Shown here: positions 6,233 through 55,864 of the stretch, in pieces | How positions within the stretch are numbered: the first letter of the stretch is position 1 | Layout: each line of letters begins with the position of its first letter | Assembly (NCBI RefSeq): GCF_001510655.1 | Contig: NZ_LMVC01000010.1 | Span: forward strand, 1 to 55,864 | DNA from: Fictibacillus sp. FJAT-27399 | GTDB lineage: Bacteria; Bacillota; Bacilli; Bacillales; Fictibacillaceae | Length of the DNA stretch: 55,864 nucleotides | Reading direction: 5' to 3' | Program-made: the position numbers and the translations under genes | The notes under the pieces: model-generated | What the model was told of the DNA's origin: nothing | Seen by the model: the letters and a program-made list of their open reading frames with translations, nothing else | The model's database searches: none

Positions 6233-6816
6233 ACCATGTTCCCTTTATTTTTGTATTGATCGATAAAATTCCGCAGCAGCTTTTTGCCTGCTTCTGTCAT
6301 GATCGACTCAGGGTGAAATTGTACACCTTCTACCGGAAGCGTCTTATGGCGAATGGCCATAATTTCTCCTCCCGGGGTCCATGCTGACACACTGAAACAT
6401 TCTGGAAGTGTTTCTTTCTTTACAATGAGAGAGTGGTATCTCGTAGCAGTAAATACTTTTTCAAGCCCGCTGAAAATGGTCTTTCCGTCATGTGAAATCT
6501 CTGAGGTCTTTCCATGCATCAGGCGTTCGGAGCGAATGACATCTCCTCCAAATACTTGGGCGATGGATTGATGCCCTAGGCATACCCCGAAAATCGGAAT
6601 CTCACCTGCAAAGTGCTTAATGGCTCCCATGCTGATTCCAGCTTCGTTCGGTGAACAAGGGCCCGGAGAGATCATCAAAAAATCTGGCTGAAGCGCCTCG
6701 ATTTCTTTGAGAGTGATCTCATCGTTTCTCTTGACGACAAGCTCTTCTCCCAGCTCTCCTAAATATTGTACAAGGTTGTACGTGAATGAATCGTAGTTAT
6801 CAATCATTAAAATCAT
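6217..6816 (-). CDS. pabA: Glutamine amidotransferase of anthranilate and aminodeoxychorismate synthases
   Basis: A 199-residue class I glutamine amidotransferase that supplies ammonia to PabB, and in Bacillus also to TrpE (amphibolic PabA/TrpG). [14 protein letters not shown] opens the domain, FGVCLGHQ contains the nucleophilic cysteine, and GVQFHPES the catalytic His/Glu. The frame has an ATG two codons upstream, but GAGGAGG nine bases before the second ATG fits better. A run of GAG/UAG triplets covers its ribosome-binding site, as expected for TRAP control in response to tryptophan. Confidence 0.96.
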
Positions 6817-26264: not shown

Positions 26265-26317
26265 ACCTGCTCCTAAACACTGCATCGAATAAAAGTATAA
26301 GTATTATAGCATAGTTA

Positions 26318-26583
26318 GAAAAGCTGAAGCCGCTGTTTAGAGACGAAATGCACTGGAGGTCTTTGGCATAAAACGCTTTTTGTTTTCTGACAAAGACCGA
26401 AGTGGTCGAGTCTCTAGCGGCTGAAGCTGGATCAAGAAAAGCTGAAGCCGCCTGTTTAGAGACGACAAGCGCTGGAGTTCTCATACAGCAACACGCTTTT
26501 GTGTTGAGGTGGGAGATCGAAGCGTTCGAGTCTCTAGGCACTGAAGCTGGATCAAGAAAAGCTGAAGCGCCTGGTTAATAGCA
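26318..26583. repeat. Hairpin repeat family A: two tandem copies plus a partial third
   Basis: Copies begin with GAAAAGCTGAAGC at 26318, 26436 and 26556 (periods 118 and 120); the third breaks off after 28 bases at the spoVT terminator. Each full copy folds on itself: an outer arm such as CCGCT...AGCGG, then AGAGAC...GTCTCT, then a small inner hairpin (AAAAC-GCTTTTT-GTTTT in copy 1, AACAC-GCTTTT-GTGTT in copy 2). Related tandem copies are at 35546-35812. No protein gene is supported here. Confidence 0.85.
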
Positions 26584-54994: not shown

Positions 54995-55110
54995 GTTACT
55001 TGCGGGTTTGTACGGTTTTCATGCGGCTTTGTCCCTTTTACGTGCGACTTTGAAGGGTTTACATGCGGGAATGGAGACTTTACGTGCGACTTTTCAGCCT
55101 TTCATGCCAA
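54995..55110. repeat. 21-bp-spaced repeat array, left (diverged)
   Basis: Six units with the core TTAC(T/G/A)TGCG; the TGCG of successive units starts at 55001, 55022, 55043, 55064 and 55085, exactly 21 bases apart. A last unit with TGCC is at 55105. The 10-11 bases between cores differ in every unit. It lies 34 bases past the terminator of the left 5S gene (transcription order). Function unknown. Confidence 0.85.
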
Positions 55111-55137
55111 ACCCCTCATTGTCATAAAAAAGAACAT

Positions 55138-55174
55138 ACAAAAAAGCACTGCTGAAATCAATCCAACAGTGCTT
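55138..55174 (-). terminator. Terminator after the left 5S gene
   Basis: AAGCACTG/CAGTGCTT stem (55144-55151 and 55167-55174) with a T run on the minus strand; nearly identical to the terminator at 55636-55672. Confidence 0.9.
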
Positions 55175-55181
55175 CGTTCAT

Positions 55182-55298
55182 GCCCGGCAACGTCCTACTT
55201 ATACAGGGGAAAGCCCCCACTCCCATCGGCGCTGAAGGGCTTAACTTCCGTGTTCGGTATGGGAACGGATGTGACCTCTTCGCTATCGCTCACCACCG
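55182..55298 (-). rRNA. 5S rRNA, second divergent copy
   Basis: Aligns over its full length with the 5S gene at 55680-55795 (the core GAAGAGGTCACA...CCGTTCCCATACCGAACACGG is intact), but has about a dozen differences, including one extra base near the 5' end (TGGTGAGCG against TGGTGGCG). The terminal helix can still pair (GGTGG with TTGCC). No 16S/23S or clear promoter precedes it. It may be a functional extra 5S fed by readthrough, or a decaying copy. Confidence 0.75.
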
Positions 55299-55493
55299 AA
55301 TATCCCTTGCTCTGAGCACGACCCAGGCGGCGATATGCAAACCACCTTATTTGGTTGATCCCTCGATGGTTTTAGGAAAAATAGAACAAGTAATTAGTTT
55401 GTATAGGCTTTATTTTTTCGTTTTCTCTTTGAAAATCATCTTTTTGTGGCTAATGGATACGGTTTCGAAGGTTCTGCTTTGTTGTCCGGGAGC
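55299..55493. other. Gene-free stretch between left 5S and right array
   Basis: About 195 bases. A short inverted repeat AACCACC...GGTTGAT lies at 55339-55357. No 23S-like sequence, clear promoter or protein gene is seen, so the sequence ahead of the second 5S is not a copied 23S-5S spacer. Confidence 0.5.
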
Positions 55494-55610
55494 GTTACTT
55501 GCGGTTTTTGTGGGTTTACTTGCGAAACCGGCTCATTTACTTGCGGTTCGACAGCGTTTACTTGCGATTTCACAGCCGTTACTTGCGATTCGACAAGGTT
55601 TACTTGCCTA
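55494..55610. repeat. 21-bp-spaced repeat array, right (uniform)
   Basis: Six units with the core TTACTTGCG; TGCG/TGCC starts at 55500, 55521, 55542, 55563, 55584 and 55605, always exactly 21 bases apart (minus-strand core CGCAAGTAA). The remaining 11-12 bases vary between units. The last unit has TGCC, as in the left array. It begins 26 bases past the terminator of the rRNA operon. Function unknown. Confidence 0.9.
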
Positions 55611-55635
55611 TCACGTCATTTTCATAAAAGAACAT

Positions 55636-55672
55636 ACAAAAAAGCACTGCTGGAATCAATCCAACAGTGCTT
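55636..55672 (-). terminator. Terminator of the rRNA operon
   Basis: AAGCACTG/CAGTGCTT stem (55642-55649 and 55665-55672) with TTTTTT on the minus strand, eight bases past the 5S gene. Confidence 0.93.
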
Positions 55673-55679
55673 CAATCGT

Positions 55680-55795
55680 GCCTGGCAACGTCCTACTCTT
55701 ACAGGGGGAAGCCCCCAACTACCATCGGCGCTGAAGAGCTTAACTTCCGTGTTCGGTATGGGAACGGGTGTGACCTCTTCGCTATCGCCACCAGA
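55680..55795 (-). rRNA. 5S ribosomal RNA (end of an rRNA operon)
   Basis: 116 nt, minus strand: begins TCTGGTGGCGATAGCGAAGA, contains the conserved loops, and ends GGACGTTGCCAGGC; the ends pair as CTGGTGGC with GTTGCCAG. It is followed by a terminator and preceded by a normal 23S-5S spacer, so it is the last gene of an operon whose 23S lies to the right of the window. Confidence 0.96.
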
Positions 55796-55864
55796 CATAG
55801 GTAGGTTTTTCAACCTATTTTGAGGTATATTCCCTCAAAACTAGATAACTTTTCATCCAAACTT
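55796..55864 (-). other. 23S-5S intergenic spacer (to window edge)
   Basis: Contains GAGGGAATATACCTC and the hairpin AGGTTGAAAAACCT on the minus strand, upstream of the 5S gene; typical rRNA spacer with processing structures. The 23S gene itself is outside the window. Confidence 0.7.

Follow-up and report, generated by a model that had tools for sequence, protein, structure and literature searches.

Phased, usually six-unit repeat arrays with a 21-bp pitch form a dispersed family behind gene ends in Fictibacillus

The REP units of enterobacteria are palindromes which form hairpins. The iterons of plasmid origins are direct repeats with a pitch of approximately 20–22 bp and are read by protein on one helical face. 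The RacA ram sites and parS, both origin-proximal binding sites of Bacillus chromosomes, are inverted repeats, and in CRISPR loci long unique spacers separate repeats that measure approximately 20 bp or more. For BIME-2, binding by gyrase and a possible contribution to genome organisation have been reported (PMC6379681). The same paper reports an enrichment of gyrase sites downstream of highly transcribed operons (PMC6379681). A precedent for head-to-tail, cooperative binding of a protein to direct repeats, with distortion of the DNA, is BldC (PMC5859096). Here we describe a family of phased, usually six-unit arrays of direct repeats, curved according to modelling, whose scope exceeds that of an original prediction made for one array in the window, the whole stretch of 55,864 nucleotides analysed.

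The array in question was located on the plus strand at positions 55495–55608. Each unit consists of the core TTACTTGCG and a 12-nt filler, and the core starts at 55495, 55516, 55537, 55558, 55579 and 55600 lie exactly 21 bp apart. This confirmed the six units and the constant pitch which had been predicted. The prediction had also seen TGCG in all six cores; this is the case for cores 1–5, which all read TTACTTGCG, but not for the sixth core TTACTTGCC, where TGCC stands at 55605. The sixth core is followed by the conserved tail TATCACGTCATTTTCATAAA (55609–55628, plus strand; genus consensus AAACACATCATTTTCATAAA). Approximately 12 bp from the tail end lies the end of a terminator-like hairpin (55641–55673, minus strand), the intrinsic terminator of a 5S rRNA gene at 55680–55795 (minus strand; RF00001, 99.8 bits). 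The array was thus rightly placed behind an rRNA operon terminator. It was also rightly judged not to be a simple satellite, and its size agrees with the judgement that it is not a CRISPR: in contrast to CRISPR loci, the repeats measure 9 bp and the 12-bp fillers are patterned.

A second, diverged array of the same architecture occupies positions 54996–55108 (plus strand). Its word, as we call the five nucleotides after TTAC, is RTGCG, and its cores read TTACTTGCG, TTTCATGCG, TTACGTGCG, TTACATGCG, TTACGTGCG and finally TTTCATGCC, which comes one base early. It is followed by the tail AAACCCCTCATTGTCATAAA (55109–55128, plus strand), a terminator (55143–55175, minus strand) and a second 5S rRNA gene (55182–55300, minus strand, 67.2 bits). 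A search of the window for two cores 21 bp apart with up to three mismatches yielded 9 matches, 5 in the first and 4 in the second array, compared to 0.01 expected from 100 dinucleotide shuffles. The rRNA operon end (54996–55864) contains a tandem pair of 5S genes, each with its own terminator and its own array, and the words of the two arrays differ. Two 5S genes are likewise present at locus L192 of genome G048, a near-complete chromosome of the same species. Elsewhere in the window, positions 26317–26577 hold a tandem repeat of 120 bp (2.2 copies, 80% matches).

The arrays are widely dispersed. A degenerate pair pattern found 23 forward and 43 reverse matches in the window's own genome (G000), and the control pattern none. 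On the G048 chromosome, a search for six TTAC at 21 bp, with three mismatches allowed, gave 46 + 42 overlapping matches compared to 0 + 1 for the control. Merging all 88 matches resulted in 29 array loci with unrelated, varied neighbouring genes. Only four of these 29 loci adjoin a 5S gene (Rfam). Consequently, the predicted role tied to rRNA ends does not hold. The arrays are not confined to rrn operons, but they are intergenic and not scattered through coding DNA. Among the arrays away from rRNA genes, that of L118 follows a prfB-like gene. Their design comprises six 21-bp units, each made of TTAC, a 5-nt word and 12 nt, mostly followed by a conserved 20-bp tail. Among 25 fully read arrays, 20 have exactly six cores, three score seven, each with one chance extra, and two score five. 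The unit step is 21 bp in 118 of 122 cases, 20 bp in three and 22 bp in one. In the tail AAACACATCATTTTCATAAA after the sixth core, A2 and T11 are invariant in all 25 arrays; the other positions from 10 to 20 show their main base in 22–24 of 25 arrays, except position 17 (19/25).

A profile built from 22 arrays was applied to genomes of this one genus, with the best 150 candidates per genome scored. It matched at least 33 times in G000, 40 in G048, 30 in G003, 41 in G002, 24 in G004 and 42 in G005. In G001, a 3.7-Mb genome of the same genus, no array was found by the pair pattern, by the profile (best 150 candidates scored) or by the search for six TTAC at 21 bp (no match; control 3 + 3). The element is therefore dispensable, and G001 would serve as a natural control in a search for a reader protein. 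In Neobacillus mesonae the latter search gave 4 + 1 matches and its control 1 + 0.

The words observed after TTAC are TTGCG, RTGCG, RTGCC, TCACS, TGGCG, GGGCG and TGTCC. Arrays with TCACG or TCACC occur in G003 and G005, and arrays with TTAGTTGCG in G002, G003 and G004. Arrays with other words keep the 21-bp design and, where complete, six units. The tail is mostly present behind TCAC and TTAGTTGCG arrays, partial behind RTGCC and TGTCC arrays, and absent behind TGGCG and GGGCG arrays. For 78 distinct six-unit arrays from the fetched Fictibacillus loci, word identity was 0.862 inside an array and 0.603 for comparisons across arrays whose majority words differ; the corresponding filler identities were 0.385 and 0.328. 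Some arrays contain mixed or alternating words (ATGCG/GTGCG, TCACG/TCACC, TGTCC/GTGCC). With words that vary from array to array, a single strict 9-bp site cannot account for the whole family, and the idea of one strict reader of TTACTTGCG is weakened by the other words in arrays of the same design. Among the matches listed for core, 21-bp, origin-proximal and Bacillus repeats in the open-licence literature, we recognised no description of such arrays. The family is apparently undescribed so far.

Arrays of this pitch also occur in other Bacillales. A scan which asked for TTACTTGCG alone revealed arrays of TTACTTGCG or TTATTTGCG at least in Ureibacillus, Psychrobacillus, Neobacillus, Planococcus, Bacillus spp. 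and Aquibacillus. The commonest step is 21 bp in all six groups, which agrees with the spacing anticipated for relatives. The Lysinibacillus locus holds a single core pair. Long higher-order arrays with a 102-bp super-repeat were found in U. acetophenoni (L009, L039), whose genome contains at least 188 + 307 unit pairs with up to one mismatch. The Fictibacillus tail was not seen by eye in 19 stretches of other genera. A search of 398 genomes of the class with a strict TTAYTTGCG pattern of three units matched at least 6 genomes, among them that of the window; two of the other genomes had one match each with two mismatches, and the control matched two genomes. Among the matches listed, G269 and G179 (same class, family f28) contain 21-bp arrays with the cores TTATTTGCG and TTGTTTGCG; TTAC itself is thus not universal outside Fictibacillus. 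Viral contigs showed no arrays and only single core pairs (16 contigs, one pair each), and a phage origin was rejected on these grounds.

In order to describe the placement of the arrays we recorded the neighbouring genes and terminators. Of 25 arrays, 17 have a terminator-like hairpin beyond the tail, compared to 0.3 expected, and 6 have one on the head side. The 17 terminators end 1–39 bp from the tail; five of them are of the 5S type, and that of L115 is doubtful because the neighbouring gene starts there. In 39 of 50 Fictibacillus arrays the gene next to the tail has its 3' end facing it (p = 9e-5), and in 30 of these 39 the gene end lies 20–100 bp away. In other genera a gene end faces the array in 47 of 57 gaps (p = 8e-7; background 55/128), namely 19/22 in Ureibacillus, 15/20 in Psychrobacillus, 7/8 in Neobacillus, 3/4 in Bacillus, 2/2 in Planococcus and 1/1 in Aquibacillus. 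Each gap was counted once. This count and that of the commonest step above used 71 Bacillales loci outside Fictibacillus among the matches listed, and covered arrays with at least three cores which lie more than 150 bp from the end of their locus. Divergent gaps are depleted in the other genera (5/55 array gaps versus 38/128 background gaps, p = 0.002). In co-directional gaps CGCAAGTAA stands on the coding strand by 30 to 5 in other genera and by 23 to 2 in Fictibacillus. L129 and its counterpart L181 (1243968) have no 5S gene nearby according to Rfam, and a 5S-type terminator was seen in L129; terminator and array look as if they had moved together.

On the G048 contig of 4,354,756 bp, parS maps at 4,344,729 and 4,347,285 and dif at 2,270,425. 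The origin-proximal 40% of the chromosome arms holds 24 of the 29 loci (p = 3e-6), and none lies beyond 68%. Without the four 5S-adjacent loci the bias persists (20/25, p = 5e-5); thinned to one locus per 50 kb it is weaker (14/19, p = 0.003). In N. mesonae, 7 of 9 loci fall within 40% of the half chromosome, with oriC taken from the parS cluster and the terminus, as no dif match was obtained, assumed opposite oriC. Origin-proximal DNA is syntenic and slow-changing, and old elements may simply persist there. The array sequence differs from the parS/ParB TGTTTCACGTGAAACA palindrome, and parS maps elsewhere. Replication polarity was rejected as an independent signal: 21 of 25 G048 loci point the same way relative to oriC (p = 0.21), which does not exceed an assumed gene co-orientation of 75% and is therefore attributed to gene direction.

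The history of individual arrays was followed at several sites. One syntenic site is flanked by two genes, tentatively identified as ywlG and as coding for a MurR/RpiR-like regulator; the array there consists of six units in G000, four in G005 and two in G003. G004 has a probable remnant, G002 the terminator alone, and in G001 the neighbourhood differs. Array L114b of G000 is missing from the same-species genome G048 together with its surroundings (288 bp). Consequently, arrays persist, decay, and come or go with larger pieces. Clean transposition is not apparent at the sites inspected: L114b and the syntenic site show no target duplication, the alignments at L115 and L126 were unclean, and no terminal inverted repeats were seen by eye in the array ends. 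At L126 (G000:C9:191500-196000) there is an array and no CBS-domain frame of at least 60 aa listed; the same site in G048 (L177, 14068–14541) contains an open CBS-domain frame of 157 aa. A G/C-rich element, which looks like another repeat family, adjoins the array at L054 (~6280–6400) and L121 (~1900–2220) and has an 84% match in L174.

Comparison of homologous arrays revealed that the cores are mostly held more firmly than the fillers. In five of eight pairs the cores change clearly less (Fisher p 0.005 to 1e-9): each of the five differs in 1/54 core positions, compared to filler differences of 15/60 for the window array and L129, 11/60 for the window array and L131, 13/60 for L116/L141, 15/60 for L112/L113 and 30/60 for L127/L128. 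The comparisons between the window array, L129 and L131 reuse the same arrays and cannot count as independent. Two pairs are uninformative, namely L129/L131 (cores 2/54, fillers 7/60, p = 0.17) and L121/L138 (0/54 and 2/60, p = 0.5). The array at 54996 and L132 show the opposite trend (cores 7/54, fillers 2/60, p = 0.08), which is due to the one-base slip in the last unit.

The fillers had been described as free, which is wrong. A purine occupies unit position 10, and 99% of the units have A or T at position 12, which gives alternating A/T and G/C blocks with a period of 10.5 bp. The spectral power of this W/S pattern at 10.5 bp is 2.03, compared to 0.23 in shuffles and 1.16 when the cores are kept and the fillers shuffled. 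A wedge model predicts a bend of 98.6 degrees over 126 bp versus 37.6 ± 18 degrees in shuffles; the predicted bend drops to 37.7 degrees when the fillers alone are shuffled. For eleven Fictibacillus arrays with other words the predicted bend is 74–132 degrees (shuffle P of 0.03 or less). The 10.5-bp power is raised in five other groups (0.62–2.07 versus 0.22–0.31 shuffled). Among these five groups, only Planococcus (2 arrays) and the Bacillus group (15) show a clear rise in the modelled bend; in Ureibacillus (59 arrays), Psychrobacillus (19) and Neobacillus (5) it is near background. From one filler to the next, unit position 12 switches between T and A in 57 of 88 steps, compared to 41.7 ± 3.5 expected from filler reordering (0 of 1000 reorderings reached 57), which hints at three 42-bp dimers. 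The Spo0A box core is TGTCGAA, and the filler GTTCGACA (e.g., at 55546–55553 of the window), which reads TGTCGAAC on the other strand, resembles it. TTCGACA is present in 35 of 110 Fictibacillus fillers and in none of 550 fillers from other genera.

An element acting at the RNA level was rejected: for 22 arrays neither strand folded better than dinucleotide shuffles (mean z −0.44 and +0.71 per strand), and z fell below −2 in 2/22 arrays on one strand and in 0/22 on the other. Protein coding was rejected as well, as no consistent frame was found among the six. A gene for a small repetitive protein, in which 21 bp would equal seven codons, is very improbable. Three of the six frames do contain few stops (2, 4 and 3 in ~770 codons, fewer than in column-permuted units), and one frame has TAA at the end of the tail. 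However, low-stop frames occur on either strand, which linked filler motifs would account for, steps of 20 or 22 bp exist, TTAGTTGCG arrays have TAG in one frame, and the residues would have to change in concert with the words.

The two-turn pitch, the held cores, the filler-dependent predicted bend and the missing RNA structure and reading frame point to double-stranded DNA read by a protein. The most economical interpretation is a phased array of non-palindromic sites read by a protein, in view of the nearly constant step, the same pitch elsewhere and the held cores. Of the predicted protein site on one helical face, the phased-site reading is plausible and the rRNA-specific role unsupported. 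From sequence analysis we tentatively propose, as a plausible if not yet probable reading, that the arrays are architectural DNA elements, dispersed behind transcription units, which a candidate protein reads in double-stranded form. A sequence-specific protein, or several related ones for the different words, would bind head to tail along one helical face of DNA that is already curved. A stiff or wrapped nucleoprotein block would form, and the placement behind gene ends suggests its position at the transcription-unit border. There it would retain supercoils, tether the DNA or halt read-through within the origin-proximal chromosome region. In a more far-reaching form, which we consider quite improbable, the arrays would act as an address code of the chromosome's architecture: each would be a curved six-site platform behind a gene end, with one of several 5-nt words for its own paralogous DNA-binding protein, and together they would mark and fold the origin-proximal domain of Bacillales chromosomes, possibly the segment trapped in the forespore during sporulation.

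The strongest rival of the architectural element is a selfish lineage. A selfish or neutral repeat would spread by duplication and recombination to safe spots behind terminators and then decay, and the likeness of the units would reflect the copying mechanism and no useful function. Gene 3' ends are safe for insertions, the tail is common to the copies, and some copies are homologous filler by filler. Presence varies even within the species, as seen for L114b, and five species range from six units to none at the one syntenic site. This origin is possible, though on balance rather unlikely, since it has to face the fixed pitch and the usual six units, cores that are more conserved than fillers in most homologous pairs, and a predicted bend which depends on the fillers. 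Moreover, other genera with different fillers share the pitch and the 3'-end orientation, and neither terminal inverted repeats in the array ends nor target duplications at the inspected sites were seen.

Two further explanations assign a function to the same placement. The arrays might be a platform for DNA gyrase, with 126–135 bp of flexible, 10.5-bp-phased DNA wrapped by the enzyme, which would remove positive supercoils behind active transcription units in the manner reported for BIME-2 and strong gyrase sites. This is unlikely, in spite of the A/T–G/C phasing and the position at gene 3' ends. Array length and phased G/C fit the extended E. coli gyrase motif, whose G/C content is phased at 10 bp (PMC6379681). 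Left unexplained are the fixed 9-mer and the array-specific words, and arrays of other genera can far exceed one wrap in length. In addition, the attraction of gyrase downstream of genes seems not to be hard-wired and lies further downstream, according to the same paper (PMC6379681). Alternatively, a bound array or a CGCAAGTAA transcript might serve as a transcription-end device, which backs up the terminator and blocks or binds read-through RNA polymerase or RNA. The strand specificity of CGCAAGTAA and the adjacent terminators argue for such a device. It is still an improbable explanation, as a terminator is missing at the tail of 8 of 25 arrays, the gene beside the tail has its start there in 11 of 50 cases, no RNA structure was detected, a constant two-turn pitch is needless for RNA and the origin bias is left unexplained.

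If the arrays are indeed read by a protein, several Bacillales genera would possess an architectural element which is defined by its sequence and has six as its usual stoichiometry. Dozens of loci with few core words would offer a simple bench handle and a defined system for the insulation or anchoring of gene ends, terminators and the origin region. The arrays would also expose a new DNA-binding protein or protein family. If they are selfish instead, they would represent an unusual repeat which changes its word yet keeps pitch, unit number and bend.

Among the known systems, the REP/BIME elements of enterobacteria resemble the arrays as dispersed intergenic repeats biased to gene 3' ends; the arrays differ from them in that they are direct repeats, do not fold better than shuffled sequences, and keep a constant 21-bp pitch with six units as a rule. 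In contrast to iterons, which form one cluster beside a Rep gene and a replication origin, the arrays are found at 29 dispersed chromosomal loci. They share the origin-proximal bias of the RacA ram sites and parS and differ from both in being non-palindromic. The extended motif of strong gyrase sites spans ~130 bp with G/C phased at the helical repeat like the arrays (PMC6379681), but it is not known to have a fixed 9-bp core or array-specific words. The TAACTGA repeats of Beggiatoaceae likewise form many sets of short intergenic direct repeats; however, these heptamers stand mostly just upstream of start codons (PMC4679880), whereas the arrays lie mainly behind gene ends and possess 12-nt fillers and a tail.
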